A stretch of 64,000 nucleotides of DNA. It comes from Achromobacter ruhlandii (GTDB taxonomy: Bacteria > Pseudomonadota > Gammaproteobacteria > Burkholderiales > Burkholderiaceae_B). The notes beneath the pieces are model-generated. The model had not been told where the DNA came from, did not search any database, and was given only the letters and a program-made list of their open reading frames with translations. The stretch is from positions 62,001 to 126,000 of the forward strand of contig NZ_CADIJL010000010.1 in the NCBI RefSeq assembly GCF_902859695.1. Direction: 5' to 3'. This document shows positions 11,192 to 19,697 of this stretch, one piece after another; the first letter of the stretch is position 1; every line of letters starts with the position of its first letter. The position numbers and the translations under genes were made by a program.

Positions 11192-11719
11192 TCAACGGTG
11201 ATCGTGCGAATGCACCTGCAGCGCTTCCAGGAAGCGCGACACCATGTTGTAGGCGGCCACGGTGGCGGTGAGTTCGACGATCAGCTTTTCGGACCCCATG
11301 GCGGCGCGCGCCGCCTGGAACACCGGCTCGGGCACCTGCACCTGGCGCGTCATGGCGTCGGTGTAGGCCAGCACGGCGCGTTCGCGCTCGCTGAAGAGGG
11401 ACGAGGTCTCCCAATCGGACAAGGCGTCCAGCTGGGCTTGCGACACGCCCTCTTTCAGCGCGATCGGCGCATGCTGGTCGGCCTCGTAGGGCGCGCCGTT
11501 GATCGCCGCCACTCGCATGATCACCAATTCGCGGAGGTCGCCCGGCAGGGTCGACAACTGCCGGATCGAGGTCAGGTAGTTGAGCCAGCCGCCGGCCACG
11601 GCCGGGCTGTGCAGCAACATCTGGTACAAGTGCAGCACGCTGCCGCGTTCGGCGACGATGCGCTCGACCAGGGGTCGCGCTTCGGGATGGGACAGATCGG
11701 CGTAGGGAAGACGCGCCAT
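11192..11719 (-). CDS. Carboxymuconolactone decarboxylase family protein
   Basis: A 175-residue protein of the CMD/AhpD-like fold. It has the characteristic pattern LRELVIMRVAAINGAPYEADQHAPIA, where AhpD-type members carry a CxxC pair; here the cysteines are absent, so a peroxidase role is unlikely. ATG 11719 is chosen because GGAG stands 5 bases upstream; the frame continues further but with no conserved sequence. The gene is convergent with tal and divergent from bphP, with 166 bases between the two starts. The reaction is unknown. Confidence 0.82.
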   Translation of the reverse strand: MARLPYADLSHPEARPLVERIVAERGSVLHLYQMLLHSPAVAGGWLNYLTSIRQLSTLPGDLRELVIMRVAAINGAPYEADQHAPIALKEGVSQAQLDALSDWETSSLFSERERAVLAYTDAMTRQVQVPEPVFQAARAAMGSEKLIVELTATVAAYNMVSRFLEALQVHSHDHR

Positions 11720-11885
11720 GAAAACTCCGGAATAATCCGGCCGCTTGCGCCAAACGGCCAGGGGGATGGTGGACGCCCAAAAGACGAGGCGGCGCGCGCC
11801 AAAATCCCCGACGCTGCATATGCACACATTCGCAAGAACTTTGACATAATGACAACACATTGCGCACCTCCAGGACAAGCCTAGA

Positions 11886-14093
11886 ATGAATGCGCCCACC
11901 CAGTCGCACCCGCCTGTCACGCTCGCGAACTGCGACAGCGAACCGATTCACGTCCCGGGCGCGATCCAGCCCCTGGGCGCGTTGCTCGCCTTCGATGCCG
12001 CGGGCGTGTTGCGCTACGCCAGCGAAAACGCGCCGCAGGTGCTCGGGATGCCGGTCGCATTGGGCTATCGCTGCGATCCGGCTTCGCTGCCGCCGGGCCT
12101 GGCGCGGAACCTGCCGGGCTGGCTGTCCCAGGACGATCCTGTCTTCGATCCGCTCAGCATCTCGCTGGACGGGCACGCCTACGACGTCATCGCCCACCGC
12201 AACACCGACGACCTGACGCTGATCGAACTCGAACGCCGCGGCAACGACGCCGGCATCGCCGATCCGGCGCTGATCTACCGCAGCATCGAGCGCGTGCGGG
12301 CGCAGCGCGACATCGCCGGCCTGCTGGAGCGCGCCGTGCAGGAGGTGCAACGCGCCACCGGCTTCGACCGCGTCATGGCCTATCGCTTCCATCCCGACGA
12401 CAGCGGCGAGATCGTGGCCGAGCGGCGCGGCGATCCCGCGCTCGAAGACTGGGTCGGGCGCCGCTATCCCGCCGGCGACATTCCGGCCCAGGCGCGCCGC
12501 CTGTACACCGTGAATACCTTGCGCCAGATCGCCGACGGCCAGTATCAGCCGGTGCGGGTGCTGGCGCAGGACGGCATCGAGGCGCCGCTCGACATGAGCT
12601 TCTCGGTGCTGCGCAGCGTATCGCCGGTCCATCTGGAATACATGGCCAACATGGGCGTGCGCGCCACCATGAGCCTGTCGCTGGTGATCGGCGGCAGGCT
12701 CTGGGGCATGATCGCCTGCCACCACCATTCGCCGCGCCTGGTCCCCTACCCGGCCCGGCTGGCCTGCGAAGCCCTGGCGCAGGTGCTGTCCGCGGCGCTG
12801 GCGACCATCGAGGGCAACGACCGCGCCGCGCAGACACGGCGCAATGCCGCGCTGGTCAGCCGGCTGACCGAGCGCGCATCGGATTCCGAAAACATCCACC
12901 AGGCCCTTTCCGGCGGCCCGGAAACGCCCGCCTCGCTGATCGCCAACGACGCCGCGCTGTGCCTGTGGGGCAACAGCGTCACGGTGTTCGGAGGCATCGC
13001 GCCGCGCGGCGAACTTGCCGGCATCCTGTGCGCGCTGGACCAGAGCGGGCAACGTGTCGTCCACACCAACCACATCGCGCGCGACTATCCCGAGCTGCAG
13101 ACCGACCTGGTGCCCTACGCGGGCCTGCTGGCGTGCAAGTTCGACCCGATGAACAACGGCTGGCTGATCTGGTTGCGGCGCGAACAGATCGAGACCGTGG
13201 TGTGGGGCGGCAAACCCGAAAAGCAATACGCGGTGGGCAACCTGGGGCCGCGCCTGACCCCGCGCGGCTCGTTCGACGCCTGGCGCGAGGTCATGCGCGA
13301 CACCAGCCCGCCCTGGCTGCCGGCCGAACTCGAGGCGGCCGACAACCTGCGCGACGAGCTGTCGCACATCGCCACCAGCCGCGCCGCCGACGTCGACCGC
13401 GCCCGCACCGCGCTGCTGGCGATGCTGGGCCATGACCTGCGCGATCCGCTGCAATCGATTTCCATGGCGGCCACGCTGCTTTCGCGGACCGACGCCGGCG
13501 CCCGCATGGGCGAGCGCATCCGCTATTCCAGCGGACGCATGCAGCGCCTGATCTCGCAGGTGCTGGATCTTTCGCGGCTGCAGGGTGGCATGGGGCTCGG
13601 CATCGAAAAGCGCGAATGCCGCCTGTCCGACCTTTTGAACGGCCTGATCGAGGAAAAGCGCCAAGCCTATCCCGGCCTGCTCATCGAGCCGGACGTGCAC
13701 CCCGACCTGGTGCTGACGGCCGACACCGACCGCATCGCCCAGGTGGTCACCAACCTGATGAGCAACGCCCGCCAGCATGGCGCGCCGCGCATGCCGATCC
13801 ACGTCAGCGCGATGCCGCGTGGCGACGCCATCGAACTCACCGTGGCCAACCATGGCGCGCCAATCCCCGACGAGGTCATGGCGCACCTGTTCTCGCCCTT
13901 CAAGCCCGAATCCCTGGGCCAATCGCGCAACCGCAACGGCCTCGGGCTCGGCCTGTACATCGCCGAGCAGGTGGTGCGCGACCACCAGGGCGAGATCGCC
14001 GTCGACTGCCGCGACGGTCTGGTCATTTTCACCGTTACCCTGCCGCGCGACCAGGATGCGCCGCAGGTCCCCGAATCTGGAGACACCCCTTGA
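11886..14093 (+). CDS. bphP: Bacteriophytochrome histidine kinase
   Basis: A 735-residue red/far-red light sensor that binds biliverdin. PAS domain: Cys16 in LANCDSEPIHVPG is the expected chromophore-attachment residue. GAF domain (about 130-310): DRVMAYRFHPDDSGEIVAERR, PAGDIPAQARRLY (usual PASDIP with Ser replaced by Gly) and MIACHHHSPR. PHY domain: the tongue motif PRGSF in LTPRGSFDAWREV. Kinase module from about 500: H box AMLGHDLRDPLQSI, N box NLMSNARQHG, and GLGLGLYIAEQ. All key kinase boxes are present. The next gene starts inside the stop codon, and heme oxygenase follows two genes later, which supplies biliverdin. No output domain is fused. Confidence 0.95.
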   Translation: MNAPTQSHPPVTLANCDSEPIHVPGAIQPLGALLAFDAAGVLRYASENAPQVLGMPVALGYRCDPASLPPGLARNLPGWLSQDDPVFDPLSISLDGHAYDVIAHRNTDDLTLIELERRGNDAGIADPALIYRSIERVRAQRDIAGLLERAVQEVQRATGFDRVMAYRFHPDDSGEIVAERRGDPALEDWVGRRYPAGDIPAQARRLYTVNTLRQIADGQYQPVRVLAQDGIEAPLDMSFSVLRSVSPVHLEYMANMGVRATMSLSLVIGGRLWGMIACHHHSPRLVPYPARLACEALAQVLSAALATIEGNDRAAQTRRNAALVSRLTERASDSENIHQALSGGPETPASLIANDAALCLWGNSVTVFGGIAPRGELAGILCALDQSGQRVVHTNHIARDYPELQTDLVPYAGLLACKFDPMNNGWLIWLRREQIETVVWGGKPEKQYAVGNLGPRLTPRGSFDAWREVMRDTSPPWLPAELEAADNLRDELSHIATSRAADVDRARTALLAMLGHDLRDPLQSISMAATLLSRTDAGARMGERIRYSSGRMQRLISQVLDLSRLQGGMGLGIEKRECRLSDLLNGLIEEKRQAYPGLLIEPDVHPDLVLTADTDRIAQVVTNLMSNARQHGAPRMPIHVSAMPRGDAIELTVANHGAPIPDEVMAHLFSPFKPESLGQSRNRNGLGLGLYIAEQVVRDHQGEIAVDCRDGLVIFTVTLPRDQDAPQVPESGDTP

Positions 14094-14455
14094 ACGACGA
14101 GCGTGCCCTACGCGTCCTGCTGGTTGACGACAATGAAATGGGCTCGGAACTGCTGGCCGAATTCCTGGCGCTGTCCGGCCTGGAGGCGCGCTGCGCGGGT
14201 ACCGGCGAAGACGCGCTGCGGCAGGCCGCCACGTTCGCCCCCGAAGCAGTGCTGGTTGACATCCTGCTTCCCGACATGGACGGCTACGAGCTGGCCCGCC
14301 GGCTGCGCGAACGCAATGTGTCATCGCGCATTTACGCCCTGAGCGGCCTGGCGCGGCATGAACGGCACGAAGACGCCTCCGCCCTGTTCGATGGCTGGAT
14401 CGAAAAGCCCGCCGACCCCGATGCGCTGCTGACCGTGCTGCGCCAGGCGGGCTGA
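14090..14455 (+). CDS. Single-domain response regulator of the phytochrome operon
   Basis: A 121-residue receiver domain without output domain. Acidic pair D13/D14 (VLLVDDNEMG), phosphoacceptor D57 (VLVDILLPDMDG), S85 and K106 (WIEKPAD) are all present. The start is TTG at 14090, overlapping the bphP stop (TTGA), with GGAG about nine bases before it; no ATG fits. It is the likely phosphate acceptor from BphP and would have to pass the signal on by protein contact or phosphotransfer, for which the next gene product is a candidate. Confidence 0.9.
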   Translation: MNDERALRVLLVDDNEMGSELLAEFLALSGLEARCAGTGEDALRQAATFAPEAVLVDILLPDMDGYELARRLRERNVSSRIYALSGLARHERHEDASALFDGWIEKPADPDALLTVLRQAG

Positions 14456-14462
14456 CACCGCC

Positions 14463-15113
14463 ATGCAAGTCGATATTTCCGCCCAGGCGCTGGCCGCGCA
14501 AGGCGTAAGGCTGAAGGTGCTGGCGCAGATATTCCCGGTGCTGCGCCACGAGGCCATCGCGCCGCTATCGAATGCCACCTTGGCGGCGGCCATGCTGAGT
14601 CACGCGCCGGAAGGCGCGGATGCCCAGGCGCGGCAGCAGCGCTGCGAACGGCTGGCCGGAGACCTCAACGACATGCTGGAAGACAGCGTCAGCGTGATCC
14701 GCGACCTGGACCAGTGGTTCAGCGACAACGGCGCGACGCTGCCGCTGGCGACGCTGCTCAAGGAATGCCGCAAGCTGCTGTTCTCGCAATTGATGTGGTC
14801 CAAGCGCCGGGTCCGCTGGCCCGAGGACCCGGGCGCGCTCGAACTGCCCGCTTTCAGCAGTCGTTATCTGCTCATGGCCTGGCTGCTGTGCCTGGTGGCC
14901 TGGCTGCCCGAAGGCGCCGAAGTGGAGCTCGACACGGCCGACCCATCGGCATGGCATGCCCGCTTCACCGTGCCCGCGCAGGCGCCGGACGGACCCGCGC
15001 TGTTCGACACGCGCGACATCGAATGGCTGGCCGCCGATTCAGGCTGGCGCTTCGAGCGGCAGCCGCAGAGCTGGTCGTTGCACCGCGCCGCCTCCGGCAA
15101 GGAACCCGCATGA
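14463..15113 (+). CDS. Unrecognised His-box protein (ChpT-like phosphotransfer candidate)
   Basis: A 216-residue protein I cannot assign to a named family. Near the N-terminus it has PVLRHEAIAPLSNATLAAAM; H29-E-x-x-x-P-L copies the pattern of a histidine-kinase H box. A second helical stretch follows (LAGDLNDMLEDSVSVIRDLDQWF), so residues 15-80 could form a dimerising helical hairpin. Residues 100-205 resemble a shrunken kinase ATPase domain in length, but I find no N, G1 or G2 box. That combination is the ChpT-type histidine phosphotransferase plan. It starts 7 bases after the receiver gene and overlaps the heme oxygenase start by four bases. The role is inferred. Confidence 0.75.
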   Translation: MQVDISAQALAAQGVRLKVLAQIFPVLRHEAIAPLSNATLAAAMLSHAPEGADAQARQQRCERLAGDLNDMLEDSVSVIRDLDQWFSDNGATLPLATLLKECRKLLFSQLMWSKRRVRWPEDPGALELPAFSSRYLLMAWLLCLVAWLPEGAEVELDTADPSAWHARFTVPAQAPDGPALFDTRDIEWLAADSGWRFERQPQSWSLHRAASGKEPA

Positions 15114-15691
15114 TCTCCCCGGTGCACCAATTCCTGCGTGATGGCACGCGCGACCGCCACGAGGCCCTGGATCAGGGGCTGGCGCTGGCCGATGGCAACG
15201 TCAGTCCGGCCCGCTATGTGGCGTATCTTCGCGCCATGCTGGGCTGGCTTGAACCGGTGGAAAACCGGCTGTGGCAACTGGACTGGCCCGCCGCGCTGCG
15301 GGCCGAAGAGCGGGACGGAAAGAGCGCGCTGATCCGCGCCGACCTGCGCGCGGCGGGCGACAGCGCGCCGGTTCCGCAATGCCCCGATGCGCCGCGCCCG
15401 CGGGCGGCCGACGCCTATGCGCTGGGCGTGGCCTACGTGGTCGAGGGTTCGCAACTGGGCGGACGCTTCCTGGCCAAGCGGCTCGAAGCCGCCGATCCGC
15501 CGTTGCCGCTGCGCTACCTGCGCGGCTATGGCGATGAGGTCGGGCCACTGTGGAAGGGTTTCCTGCAACACCTGGACGTGGCGGCGCAAGGACAGGAAGC
15601 GCAGGCGCTGAAAGGCGCGCGCGACGCGTTCGACAGCCTCGCCGCCTGGCTGCGGGACCAGGGCGCCCAGCAGAGCCCGGGCCAGCGATAG
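15110..15691 (+). CDS. bphO: Biliverdin-producing heme oxygenase
   Basis: A 193-residue heme oxygenase that opens heme to biliverdin, the phytochrome chromophore. The proximal histidine is H17 in TRDRHEALDQGLAL, and the distal helix carries YVVEGSQLGGRFLAKRL, with the glycine pattern of the family. Length fits bacterial BphO (about 190-200 residues). ATG 15110 overlaps the preceding stop codon (ATGA), showing translational coupling. It is the last gene of the four-gene phytochrome operon; no clear terminator follows before the convergent ABC permease gene. Confidence 0.92.
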   Translation: MISPVHQFLRDGTRDRHEALDQGLALADGNVSPARYVAYLRAMLGWLEPVENRLWQLDWPAALRAEERDGKSALIRADLRAAGDSAPVPQCPDAPRPRAADAYALGVAYVVEGSQLGGRFLAKRLEAADPPLPLRYLRGYGDEVGPLWKGFLQHLDVAAQGQEAQALKGARDAFDSLAAWLRDQGAQQSPGQR

Positions 15692-15734
15692 CCGCCGGAC
15701 CGCGCCAGCGCGCGGCTCCAGGACGGCCAGCGGG

Positions 15735-16529
15735 TCAGATCTTCTCGGTCTCGCCGGACTTCGGCTGCCACTTCATCAAGCGCTTTTCACCGATCCCGAC
15801 GATGTAATCCAGCACCAGCGCGAACGCGGTCAGCACCACGATGCCGGCAAACACCGTGTTGACGTCGAAGGTGCCCTCGGCCTGCAGGATCAGGTAGCCG
15901 ACGCCGCTGGCCGAGCCCAGGTATTCGCCCACCACCGCGCCGACGAAGGCCAGGCCCACCGAGGTGTGCAGACTGGAGAACACCCAGCTGGTGGCCGACG
16001 GCAGGTAGACGTGGCGCAGTAGCTGGCGGCGGCGCGCGCCCAGCATGCGGGCGTTGTCCAGCAGCGTCGGGCTGACTTCGCGCACGCCCTGGTAGACGTT
16101 GAAGAAGACGATGAAGAACACCAGCGTCACCGCCAGCGCCACCTTGGACCAGATGCCGAGCCCGAACCACATGCCGAAGATCGGCGCCAGGATCACGCGC
16201 GGCATCGAGTTGGCCGCCTTGATATAGGGATCGAGGATCGCGCTGGCGCGCGGCGACAGGCCCAGCCACAGGCCGAAGGCCAGGCCGGCTATGGTGCCGA
16301 TGAAAAAGGCCAGCACGGTTTCGGTCAGCGTGACCCACAGGTGGGTGTAGATGTCGGCATTGGTGACGAACCAGGCCCAGATGCGGCCCCACACCTTGAG
16401 GGGCTCGCCGAAGAAGAACGCCACCTTGGAATCGCGCGAGGCGAAATGCCACACGCCCAGGATGACGACGAGCAGCAGCAACTGCCAGAAGCGCAGGCTG
16501 GCGGAACCCGGTTTGAACGACTTGGACAT
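15735..16529 (-). CDS. ABC transporter permease, NitT/TauT (SsuC-like) family
   Basis: A 264-residue inner-membrane permease with about six hydrophobic segments. The EAA-like loop is LLDNARMLGARRRQLLRHVYLP, and GEYLGSASGVGYLI is a family hallmark of SsuC/TauC permeases. It is the last gene of a minus-strand operon with the ATPase (53 bases upstream), the receptor and a CoA transferase. Family members import sulfonates, nitrate, taurine or pyrimidine precursors; the substrate here is not shown. Confidence 0.92.
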   Translation of the reverse strand: MSKSFKPGSASLRFWQLLLLVVILGVWHFASRDSKVAFFFGEPLKVWGRIWAWFVTNADIYTHLWVTLTETVLAFFIGTIAGLAFGLWLGLSPRASAILDPYIKAANSMPRVILAPIFGMWFGLGIWSKVALAVTLVFFIVFFNVYQGVREVSPTLLDNARMLGARRRQLLRHVYLPSATSWVFSSLHTSVGLAFVGAVVGEYLGSASGVGYLILQAEGTFDVNTVFAGIVVLTAFALVLDYIVGIGEKRLMKWQPKSGETEKI

Positions 16530-16581
16530 GGTCAGGGCCTGTTCGATGGGAAGCGGGCGCGGCCTGGATCAGGCAGGGGCC

Positions 16582-17394
16582 TCAGGCCCGCTTCTGTTGT
16601 TGGGCATAGCCCTTGAGCACTTCCTCGCGCAGCACCGCCCAGATGGCCGCGTGCAATTCGACGAAGCGCAGGTTGTTGCGCACTTCGGCCACGTCGCGCG
16701 GACGCGGCAGGTCGATGGCGAACTCGCCGATGGGATGCGTGCCCGGCCCGGCCGACAGCACCACCACGCGGTCGCTCATGGCGATGGCTTCGTCCAGGTC
16801 ATGGGTGATGAACAGCACCGCCTTGCGCTTGGCCATCCACAGGTCCAGCACCTCGTTTTCCATCAGCTGTCGCGTCTGGATGTCGAGCGCCGAGAACGGC
16901 TCGTCCATGAGGATGATGTCGGGGTCGCGGATCAGCGTCTGCGCCAGCATGGCGCGCTTGCGCATGCCGCCCGACATCTGGTGCGGATAGCGGCTCTCGA
17001 AGCCGCCCAGGCCGACGCGGCGCATCCAGTCGCGGCCGCGCTCGAGCGCCTCGTCGCGCGGCACGCCGGCGAAATCCAGCCCGGCCACTACGTTGTCGAG
17101 CGCGCTGCGCCAGGGCAGCAGCGCCTCGCCCTGGAACATGTAGCCGGCGCGCGAATTGATGCCCGACAGCGGCTGGCCGAAGACCTTTACCTGGCCCGAC
17201 GACGGCGCCAGCAGGCCGGCGCTGACGTTGAGCAGGGTGGACTTGCCGCAGCCCGTGGGGCCCACCACCGACACGAACTCGCCCGGCGCGATGGCCAGGC
17301 TCGTGTCGCTGACGGCGGTGTAGCGCTGCGAGCGGTCGTCGCGGGAGACGAAGGTGCAGCTGATGTTTTCCAGCGATAGCGCGGCGTCAGCCAT
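16582..17394 (-). CDS. ABC transporter ATP-binding protein, NitT/TauT (SsuB-like) family
   Basis: A 270-residue ATPase for the neighbouring permease. Walker A is GPTGCGKST near residue 45, the signature is MSGGMRKRAMLAQTLIRDP, and Walker B is IILMDEPFSALD; the switch His is in FITHDLDEAIAMSDR. The start lies inside the end of the receptor gene (8-base overlap), showing translational coupling. No regulatory extension is present. Confidence 0.93.
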   Translation of the reverse strand: MADAALSLENISCTFVSRDDRSQRYTAVSDTSLAIAPGEFVSVVGPTGCGKSTLLNVSAGLLAPSSGQVKVFGQPLSGINSRAGYMFQGEALLPWRSALDNVVAGLDFAGVPRDEALERGRDWMRRVGLGGFESRYPHQMSGGMRKRAMLAQTLIRDPDIILMDEPFSALDIQTRQLMENEVLDLWMAKRKAVLFITHDLDEAIAMSDRVVVLSAGPGTHPIGEFAIDLPRPRDVAEVRNNLRFVELHAAIWAVLREEVLKGYAQQQKRA

Positions 17395-18427
17395 TGGGGT
17401 ACTTCTCGTTGGCGCGGCGGGCGAAATCGTTGGTCCAGACCTTGGACGGATCGATCTTGGCGCCGTCGAAATCCGCCTGGTACGCGGCCAGGGCCTTGAG
17501 CGCGGTGGCGGCGCCGTCCTCGGGGATCATGCCGTCGGGCGACAGGCCCTCGAGGCTCTTGCCGATGGCGGCCTTGTACACCGCCGGGTCGCCCAGCAGG
17601 TAGGTTTCCGGCACGACCTTGGCGATCTCGTCGGGGCCGGCCTTCTGGATCCACTTGTCGGCGCGCACCATGGCGTTGGTGAGCGCCTGCACGGTATTGG
17701 GATTGGCGTCGATGAACGCCTGCGGCGCGTACAGGCAGCCGGCCGGCATGTTGCCGCCGAAGATGTCCTGCGTGTCCTTGAGCGTGCGGGTGTCGACGAT
17801 GATCTGGATGTCGCCCGGCATTTCCAGCATCGACACCACGGGGTCGGTGTTGGAGATGGCGTCGATCTGGCCGCTGCGCAGCGCGGTCACCGCGCCGGCG
17901 CCGGCGCCCACGCCGATGATGGAAACGTCGGAAGCCTTCAGGCCGTGCTTGGCCAGGAAGAAGCTGACCACCATGTTGGTGGACGAGCCCGGCGCCGTCA
18001 CGCCGATCTTCTTGCCCTTGAGGTCGGCCGGGCCCTTGTAGTTGGGCAGGTTCTTCTTGGAGACGCCCACGCCGATCATCGGCGCGCGGCCCTGCAGCAC
18101 GAAGGCGCGGTAGGCCTGGCCCTTCGATTGCATGGCAAGGGTGTGCTCGAACGCGCCCGAGACCACGTCGGCGCTGCCGCCCACCACGGCCTGCAGCGCC
18201 TTGGAGCCGCCGGCAAAGTCGGCGATGGAGACGTCCAGACCCTCGTCCTTGAAGTAACCGCGCGCCTCGGCGATGGACAGCGGCAGGTAATAGATCAGGG
18301 GCTTGCCGCCCACGGCGATCTGGACCTTGGTCTTCTCCAGCTTCTGGGCGCGCACGATGGCGGGGGCCATGCCCATGACGCCGGCGGCGCCGGCCATCTT
18401 GAGCAGATCACGGCGTGTGACTGACAT
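17387..18427 (-). CDS. ABC transporter periplasmic receptor, NitT/TauT family, Tat-type signal
   Basis: A 346-residue solute receptor. The N-terminus VTRRDLLKMAGAAGVMG has a twin-arginine motif followed by a hydrophobic run and an AIVRAQ cleavage region, so export through Tat is likely. The mature part follows the SsuA/TauA/ThiY plan (VQIAVGGKPLIYYLPLSIAE, GYFKDEGLDVSIADFAGG). ATG 18427 is chosen for the GGAG sequence eight bases upstream and the signal peptide that begins there. It overlaps the end of the CoA-transferase gene by 20 bases. The ligand is unknown but its gene neighbour suggests a carboxylic acid. Confidence 0.9.
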   Translation of the reverse strand: MSVTRRDLLKMAGAAGVMGMAPAIVRAQKLEKTKVQIAVGGKPLIYYLPLSIAEARGYFKDEGLDVSIADFAGGSKALQAVVGGSADVVSGAFEHTLAMQSKGQAYRAFVLQGRAPMIGVGVSKKNLPNYKGPADLKGKKIGVTAPGSSTNMVVSFFLAKHGLKASDVSIIGVGAGAGAVTALRSGQIDAISNTDPVVSMLEMPGDIQIIVDTRTLKDTQDIFGGNMPAGCLYAPQAFIDANPNTVQALTNAMVRADKWIQKAGPDEIAKVVPETYLLGDPAVYKAAIGKSLEGLSPDGMIPEDGAATALKALAAYQADFDGAKIDPSKVWTNDFARRANEKYPNG

Positions 18428-19697
18428 GTGTTGTCTCCTTGGGTGCGGGGATACCGATAGCGCCGGTCTGCGCCAGCTTGTCGATAGCCGCTGAATCATA
18501 CCCCAGCGATTTCAGGACTTCCTCGGTATGTTCCCCTAATGACGGACCGATCCAGCGGGTCCCGCCCGGGGTTTCCGAGAGCTTGGGCACCACCGCAGGC
18601 AGCTTGACCGGACTGCCGTCGGCGAAGTGGTGCTGCTCGATCATGCGGCGCGCCAGGAACTGCGGATCGCTGAACATGTCGGCCACGCTGTAGATCTTGC
18701 CGACCGGCACGTCGGCCGCCTTCAGGGTGTTGAGCGCTTCCTCGATGCCGCGGCCATCGCACCATTGCTGGATGGCGCCGTCGATCTCGGCGACCCGGCG
18801 GGCGCGGCCATCGTTGCGCACCAGGTCCGGGGCCGAGGCCAGGTCGTCGCGGCCGATGGCCAGCATCAGGCGGTGGAAGATCGCATCGCCGTTGCCGGCG
18901 ATGACGATGTTCTGGCCGTCGCGCGTGGTGTAGGTGTTGGACGGCACGATGCCGGGCAGCGCGCCGCCGGTGCGTTCGCGCACCACCCCGGCCACGTCGT
19001 ACTCGGGCACCAGGCTTTCCATCATGTTGAACACGGCCTCGTACAAGGCCACGTCGACCATCTGGCCCTGCCCCGCCTGGCACCCTTCGCCCTGCACGCC
19101 GTTCCAGCGCCCGCCGGTGGCGTCGCGGTGGCGCAGCGCCATCATGGCGCCGATCACGCCATGCAGCGCGGCGATTGAATCGCCGATCGAGATGCCGACC
19201 CGCAGCGGCGGCCGGTCGGGATGCCCGGACACGTAGCGCAGGCCGCCCATGGATTCGCCGATGGCGCCGAAGCCCGGCTGATCCTTCATCGGGCCGGTCT
19301 GGCCGTAGCCGGACAGGCGCACCATGATGAGGGCGGGGTTGATGGCGCGCAGCTGCTCAAACCCAAGCCCCCACTTTTCCAACACGCCGGGGCGATAGTT
19401 CTCGACCACCACGTCGGCGTCCAGCGCCAGTTTGCGGGCGATTTCGCGGGCCTCGGGATGCTTGAGATTGAGGGCAATGGATTGCTTGTTGCGGGCCTGC
19501 ACGGTCCACCACAGCGAATTGCCTTCATGCAGGTGGCGCCAGCTGCGGATGGGGTCGCCCCCGCCCGTGCCGTCGGGGCCGTGCGGCGTTTCCACCTTGA
19601 TGACGTCGGCGCCGAATTCGCCGAAGATGCGCGCGGCGAACGGGCCGGCGATGAGCGTGCCGAGTTCCAGGACCTTCAGGCCGGTCAGGGCTGACAT
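18408..19697 (-). CDS. CaiB/BaiF (family III) CoA transferase
   Basis: A 429-residue cytosolic CoA transferase that moves CoA between carboxylic acids. The N-terminal signature LKVLELGTLIAGPFAARIFGEFGADVIKVE and the long two-part interlocked-fold length are typical. The expected catalytic Asp region reads VGISIGDSIAALHGVIGAM. GAGAGGAAG stands before the ATG. It is the first gene of the ABC importer operon and overlaps the receptor gene by 20 bases, which suggests that the imported compound is activated to a CoA thioester on entry. The acid is not identified. Confidence 0.92.
   Translation of the reverse strand: MSALTGLKVLELGTLIAGPFAARIFGEFGADVIKVETPHGPDGTGGGDPIRSWRHLHEGNSLWWTVQARNKQSIALNLKHPEAREIARKLALDADVVVENYRPGVLEKWGLGFEQLRAINPALIMVRLSGYGQTGPMKDQPGFGAIGESMGGLRYVSGHPDRPPLRVGISIGDSIAALHGVIGAMMALRHRDATGGRWNGVQGEGCQAGQGQMVDVALYEAVFNMMESLVPEYDVAGVVRERTGGALPGIVPSNTYTTRDGQNIVIAGNGDAIFHRLMLAIGRDDLASAPDLVRNDGRARRVAEIDGAIQQWCDGRGIEEALNTLKAADVPVGKIYSVADMFSDPQFLARRMIEQHHFADGSPVKLPAVVPKLSETPGGTRWIGPSLGEHTEEVLKSLGYDSAAIDKLAQTGAIGIPAPKETTHVSHTP

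Follow-up and report, generated by a model that had tools for sequence, protein, structure and literature searches.

A four-gene bacteriophytochrome operon

The bacteriophytochrome gene bphP and three companion genes lie in a window of Achromobacter ruhlandii DNA, by which is meant the whole stretch of 64,000 nucleotides that was analysed (contig NZ_CADIJL010000010.1, positions 62,001 to 126,000), belonging to a genome of 6.86 Mb. Four genes follow one another end to end on the plus strand from 11886 to 15691 of the window: bphP (11886-14093, 735 residues), a single-domain receiver (14090-14455, 121 residues, TTG start), a gene here called X (14463-15113, 216 residues), which is a candidate for a ChpT-like histidine phosphotransferase, and bphO (15110-15691, 193 residues), a heme oxygenase for biliverdin supply. 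A first-pass annotation made from the sequence had reported four tightly packed genes with two overlaps at stop codons and a 7-base junction, and both the coordinates and the junctions were confirmed. The bphP stop codon TGA (14091-14093) overlaps the TTG start of the receiver (14090) by 4 bases, 7 bases lie between the receiver stop (14455) and the start of X (14463), and the overlap between X and bphO is again one of 4 bases (15110-15113). Pfam assigns a family to every protein of the operon except X; the receiver matches Response_reg with an expectation value (E) of 4.8e-18, and BphO matches Heme_oxygenase with E 1.3e-10. The four genes form a real and conserved operon that includes a probable kinase-derived phosphotransferase.

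BphP has the architecture of a bacteriophytochrome kinase, a PAS-GAF-PHY photosensor joined to HisKA-HATPase_c, with all five domains (PAS_2, GAF, PHY, HisKA and HATPase_c) over the Pfam cut-off. Its Cys16 (11931-11933) stands at what we take to be the usual biliverdin-binding position, and H516 (codon 13431-13433) is the predicted phospho-acceptor. The closest PDB entry to the kinase half is a bacteriophytochrome chain, 9eut (E 8.3e-63), presumably PsBphP1 of P. syringae. The usual kinase box is DxGxG, from which both BphP and 9eut deviate in their alignment; since 9eut does so too, this departure alone is no argument against BphP activity. In HisKA domains, an acidic residue directly after the His (H+1) serves autokinase activity, and a Thr or Asn at H+4 serves phosphatase activity. 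The BphP H-box (13431-13451) reads GHDLRDPL in 67 of 72 fetched fragments, among which some genomes occur twice, and its H+4 residue is Asp rather than Thr or Asn, so that BphP may have little phosphatase activity. PsBphP1 of P. syringae is reported as a robust autokinase (PMC11316798; this and the other papers named by such accessions are used here in part). The operon receiver looks canonical: its acceptor D57 lies at 14258-14260 and K106 is present, both residues recur in every one of the 91 fetched loci that matched a receiver, a set in which some genomes appear twice, and the acidic pair consists of D or E in all loci aligned at these positions.

Gene X keeps an H-box and lacks ATPase boxes

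The H-box of X, HEAIAPL (14547-14567), contains H29 (14547-14549), the predicted phosphate-carrying residue. Neither X nor any of the 29 rows of a close alignment and the 21 rows of a wide one matched HATPase_c, with its N and G boxes, at E <= 1, and Pfam scans of the same proteins listed neither a match to the monomeric four-helix HPt domain (PF01627) nor a Spo0B-type match at that threshold. The earlier description of an HExxxPL box without ATPase boxes is thus borne out. H29 is invariant in both alignments (29/29 and 21/21 rows), and in the wide one, whose members fall to 15% identity, W85 is the only other invariant residue. The Pro at H+5 (P34) is nearly as constant, with 29/29 close rows and 20/21 wide rows, and an acidic H+1 residue (E or D) occurs in 28 of the 29 close rows but in only 17 of the 21 wide ones; the X of L039, a Bordetella-lineage locus, has Ser there. 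Thr or Asn at H+4 is found in none of the rows (0/29 and 0/21). An invariant His combined with loss of the H+1 and H+4 residues suits a carrier better than a kinase or phosphatase, and we would read the H-box chemistry of X in this way. Much of the C-terminal half is weakly conserved, and ratios of nonsynonymous to synonymous substitution rates (dN/dS) across 13 X pairs range from 0.13 to 0.35. Together with the invariance of H29 and the homologs described next, these ratios make the finding more than a product of chance.

No Pfam or NCBIfam family covers X over threshold. A match to BACOVA_N (E 0.006, 16 residues, 16.9 bits vs a cut-off of 26) was rejected as chance. Window X is 95% identical to the X of Achromobacter dolens LMG 26840. 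Queried alone, it matched 51 of the 268 genomes in its taxonomic family (E <= 1e-3), spread over 6 of 43 genera; the match in G022 was judged by eye to be a histidine kinase, which leaves 50 X genomes, and 49 loci from them enter the neighbourhood counts below. A profile search of the order matched 26 of 399 genomes, of which 13 were taken as X and 13 as parts of longer, kinase-like frames, a split made by frame length and partial match rather than hit by hit. At the level of the class (274 genomes), only 8 genomes besides its own had hits, all at E >= 4.4e-5 and in frames of 355-717 residues that were taken as kinase-like. A contig scan with a single peptide pattern returned 27 loci, all titled Achromobacter or Bordetella. 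As seen here, with the profile searched up to class level, the X family appears to belong to Burkholderiales only. In its own genome, the X profile found besides X one weak match of 12.7 bits inside a 1508-residue frame, and BphP was not matched.

X as a probable remote relative of ChpT

Comparison by hhalign of X with 22 PF10090 (ChpT-family) proteins, which come from other classes of the phylum and are presumably alphaproteobacterial, gave a score of 40.9 over 178 columns with the histidines aligned, at a probability of 77% and E 2.1e-5 for a single comparison. The best of 100 column shuffles of the ChpT profile reached 18.5 and its reversal 15.2; the unrelated control profiles, heme oxygenase and receiver, scored 15.1 and 17.3. 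A 47-row X profile scored 38.2 against ChpT. With the C-terminal halves alone, the score was 31.8 across 106 columns, while 100 shuffles peaked at 17.3 and the reversal gave 11.6. Scored against the BphP kinase domain, the C-terminal half of X reached 12.7 and that of ChpT 35.4. Judged by these profiles, X would carry an atypical, Bergerat-like domain at its C-terminus, lacking ATP boxes. In Pfam scans, HisKA matched 8 of 21 X members (best E 8.8e-4), and the most informative weak hit of X itself was HPTransfase, the ChpT C-terminal domain, with E 0.13; the same domain is listed at E <= 1 in 2 of 29 and 2 of 21 members, the best E being 0.013. From what has been observed, X would function in the manner of ChpT and is probably its remote relative, and the proposal in the first-pass annotation of a ChpT-like phosphotransfer candidate agrees with a HisKA-type H-box, a ChpT-like C-terminal half and absent ATP boxes. 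A derivation of X from the BphP of its own operon was considered and found unsupported: the H-box half of X matches BphP (36.2 over 31 columns), yet that of ChpT does so as well (40.0 over 58 columns).

Several known systems resemble this arrangement in part. ChpT of Caulobacter (PF10090) likewise has an H-box region followed by an ATP-less C-terminal domain, with no kinase boxes (PMC3433190). The two proteins differ in their motifs, with CHDxxSPVGA in ChpT against RHExxxPLSN in X and PRGG against LPEG in window X, and X has a free receiver and not a hybrid kinase as its neighbour. An exception is the distant locus L134 (4450-9185), in which X lies divergently to a hybrid kinase of CHASE3-HisKA-HATPase type that has three receivers. 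The Spo0F-Spo0B pair of Bacillus also couples a single-domain receiver with a phosphotransferase that is a degenerate kinase (PMC5898713), while X has no Spo0B Pfam match and the window pair has no linked output regulator. In the general stress response of Sphingomonas, SdrG-PhyT combines a kinase, a single-domain receiver, a kinase-derived phosphotransferase and an output regulator (PMC5898713), whereas no PhyR-like gene was noticed beside X in the neighbourhoods looked at. PhyT-type regulators are conserved among alphaproteobacteria (PMC5898713), and X is likened to PhyT by description, not by sequence.

For many bacterial phytochromes, little is known of the downstream pathway. The partner regulator of BphP has been concluded to be AlgB or BphR (PMC6932827). 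The BphP-BphR system of Deinococcus, in which BphR is a lone receiver (PMC11316798), and the BphP-AlgB system of Pseudomonas involve the same class of bacteriophytochrome kinase; unlike the window operon, these loci are described in the parts of the papers drawn on with no mention of a phosphotransferase gene. The PsBphP1 operon is described there with heme oxygenase only and with no response regulator candidate (PMC11316798). The third gene had been remarked on as one that was not recognised from described phytochrome loci. No phytochrome locus that carries a phosphotransfer gene, ChpT-like or otherwise, was found in the relevant parts of a mainly open-access literature that included PMC6932827, PMC11316798, PMC5654926, PMC3433190, PMC5898713 and PMC12189002. 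The class of mechanism is known from Spo0B, ChpT and PhyT, while neither the X family nor its use beside a phytochrome seems to have been described.

The receiver and X with and without bphP

Within the family, the receiver adjoins X in 44 of 49 loci and heme oxygenase is present in 27; bphP stands beside X in 32 loci and is absent from 16, the remaining one (L014) being cut by a contig end. Outside the family, the receiver adjoins X in six of seven distant loci (L091-L097). bphP, the receiver and X occur together in four of these, L094-L097, which also carry heme oxygenase; L092 and L093 lack bphP but keep the receiver with X, and L091 has X alone. A further locus, L098, is a 4.2-kb contig with nothing informative. 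In L092, L093 and L094, which belong to one family, a gene of CRP-type regulator (domains checked in L092) is convergent to X. Ten loci of 9-10 kb around other kinds of phytochrome in the family of the window (L128-L133, L135-L138) contained no X by profile.

PHY domains occur in 62 of the 268 family genomes. In the genus of the window all 27 PHY genomes have X, and X without PHY is found in the complete genomes G026 and G028, as well as in G033, which is 57% complete. No PHY domain was found in 12 of 17 X-bearing genomes checked, a proportion not to be read as a rate because these genomes were picked either for a missing neighbouring bphP or for their distance. When bphP next to X is traced on a tree of 54 X proteins, 8 changes are required, of which well-supported branches force 6 or more; long branches make the deep part of this tree unsure, and gains are not told from losses.

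Two loci retain a scar of bphP. In L010 (G028) and L017 (G026), bphP is cut to a short remnant of its 3' end before the receiver (L010:2514-2777 and L017:2502-2808) and heme oxygenase is gone, with the receiver and X intact. bphP may have been lost once or twice here: the intact locus L012 is placed beside L017 in the tree (99/71), but the two scars align with each other from end to end. Branch dN/dS for X is 0.19 in L010 and 0.12 in L017, and for the receiver 0.04 and 0.09; the intact sister L012 gives 0.19 and 0.13, so that the values in the two scar loci are no higher. These are three-point Nei-Gojobori estimates without errors, on branches that may partly predate the bphP losses. With such low ratios, selection appears to act on the receiver and X without the photoreceptor in these two loci. 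Since the pair stands without bphP in many relatives, PHY is absent from 12 of the 17 chosen genomes and purifying selection persists at the scar loci, light looks like one input and not the defining one. The dedicated and complete light-signalling relay envisaged in the first-pass annotation finds no support in these observations in the form given there.

A proposed phosphorelay and its alternatives

In the mechanism proposed here, X would be a degenerate histidine kinase, unable to use ATP but still equipped with the H-box domain and with a C-terminal domain of ChpT type. BphP would autophosphorylate on H516 under the control of light and pass the phosphate to D57 of the single-domain receiver; X, as a dimer, would then take it from the receiver onto H29 and hand it to one or more unlinked response regulators, so that the receiver and X would act like Spo0F-Spo0B or SdrG-PhyT. 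As the pair is kept in relatives without a phytochrome, it would serve as a general adaptor, probably fed by other kinases also. The observed basis is the gene order, the invariance of H29, the lack of ATPase matches, the similarity to the ChpT profile and the conservation with and without bphP, from which we infer the transfers, their direction, the dimer and the outputs. Also in favour of this mechanism are the receiver beside X in most loci, the catalytic Asp and Lys of that receiver, the single frame of X and heme oxygenase in L033 and the hybrid kinase next to X in L134. Taken as a whole, including the ATP-incompetent X and the general adaptor, this reading seems to us a reasonably good bet. 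A more specific version, in which receiver-X is a free-standing phosphorelay adaptor of Burkholderiales, Spo0F/Spo0B-like, with the bacteriophytochrome as one interchangeable input and cyclic-di-GMP as a possible output where a GGDEF-EAL gene follows, is put forward tentatively, at somewhat below even chances.

The output was already noted as missing at the outset, and the window indeed holds no output gene linked to X. A comparison of helix 1 with the receivers of the same genome pointed to no output. In one genus, in all five fetched loci (L045-L048 and L050), the next same-strand gene after receiver-X is of GGDEF-EAL type, 10 base pairs away in L046 and 200-620 in the other four, with domains checked in three of these loci; L041 and L043 have a dCache-GGDEF gene in the vicinity. 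These neighbours hint at a cyclic-di-GMP output in the GGDEF-linked lineages only.

A number of observations weigh against the proposed relay. Pfam HPTransfase scores X at 12.5 bits vs a gathering cut-off of 22.9, and for missing this cut-off X is called ChpT-like and not filed as ChpT; a PF10090 search of its own genome gave no match at E <= 1e-3. The narrower 29-row X profile reached only 23.9 against ChpT, at a probability of 4%, and the N-terminal halves alone match slightly (18.9). Furthermore, the BphP kinase module gives a higher score than ChpT with the first part of X (46.4 over 96 columns), so that the H-box half is kinase-like and not ChpT-specific. PDB profile searches with X gave a best E of only 0.078 (CpxA), and the invariant Gly pair of the ChpT PRGG turn, present in 22/22 ChpT rows, is not conserved in X. 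In five Bordetella-lineage loci (L035, L036, L039, L040 and L042) no receiver adjoins X, and the two X pairs tested there evolve under purifying selection. The other receivers of the same genome are at most 37% identical to the operon receiver over the matched part and point to no output protein. Finally, P. aeruginosa BphP phosphorylates Achromobacter xylosoxidans AlgB in vitro (PMC6932827), and with such a reaction published, BphP here may bypass the operon receiver.

Three other explanations may be weighed. X could act on the receiver or BphP as a phosphatase or phosphate sink, tuning the signal with no further output, which we regard as unlikely. The gene order and the conserved His would suit this as well, no output gene is linked, and kinase H-box domains can dephosphorylate receivers; however, the H+4 Thr or Asn of HisKA phosphatases is missing in every row of both alignments, and X persists without an adjacent receiver. 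Slightly less probable still is a side branch, in which BphP would signal directly to an AlgB-type regulator elsewhere and the receiver and X would serve other kinases while sharing the operon. The in vitro reaction with AlgB, the retention of receiver-X where bphP is gone, and the closeness of the BphP kinase half to the bacteriophytochrome 9eut all speak for it, but bphP, receiver and X stand together in 32 of 49 family loci and four of seven distant ones, and bphP overlaps the receiver in the window. Last, X could be a pseudo-kinase that serves as a scaffold or inhibitor by binding BphP or the receiver, H29 then having a purely structural role. Its weakly conserved C-terminal half and absent ATP boxes would suit such a role, yet a scaffold has no need for a His, and the pairing of H29 with W85 as sole invariants down to 15% identity makes this explanation very improbable.

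If the reading of receiver-X as a free-standing Burkholderiales adaptor is true, a bacterial phytochrome would here feed a phosphorelay of several steps, an arrangement of which no example was found in print, and light would be merged with other signals before an unlinked output. An operon with its own receiver and probable phosphotransfer protein would constitute a third wiring beside AlgB and BphR, and the kinase-derived phosphotransferases Spo0B, ChpT and PhyT would be joined by X as a further, unnamed family. The loci in which the sensor is lost and receiver-X is kept offer a natural experiment on input swapping by relay modules.

Flanking features and minor observations

Upstream of bphP, a weak promoter-like site lies at 11821-11850 (plus strand) with 9 of 12 consensus bases and TG before the second hexamer; it is the one such site in 11600-15900, vs a mean of 0.3 in shuffles. 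The box is common to some close relatives and the bphP-less L010, which has it still as its intact relative does; it was not found upstream in most other relatives looked at, and is not used as evidence here.

Downstream of the operon, at 15735-18499 on the minus strand, lies a set of permease, ATPase and substrate-binding genes, of nitrate/sulfonate type by eye. The permease of this set borders X directly in five relatives without heme oxygenase at that place (L010, L011, L014, L017 and L029). In L033 (3474-4718, minus strand), X and heme oxygenase are fused into one frame of 415 residues, with the heme oxygenase match at 228-407 of the 414 residues scanned.

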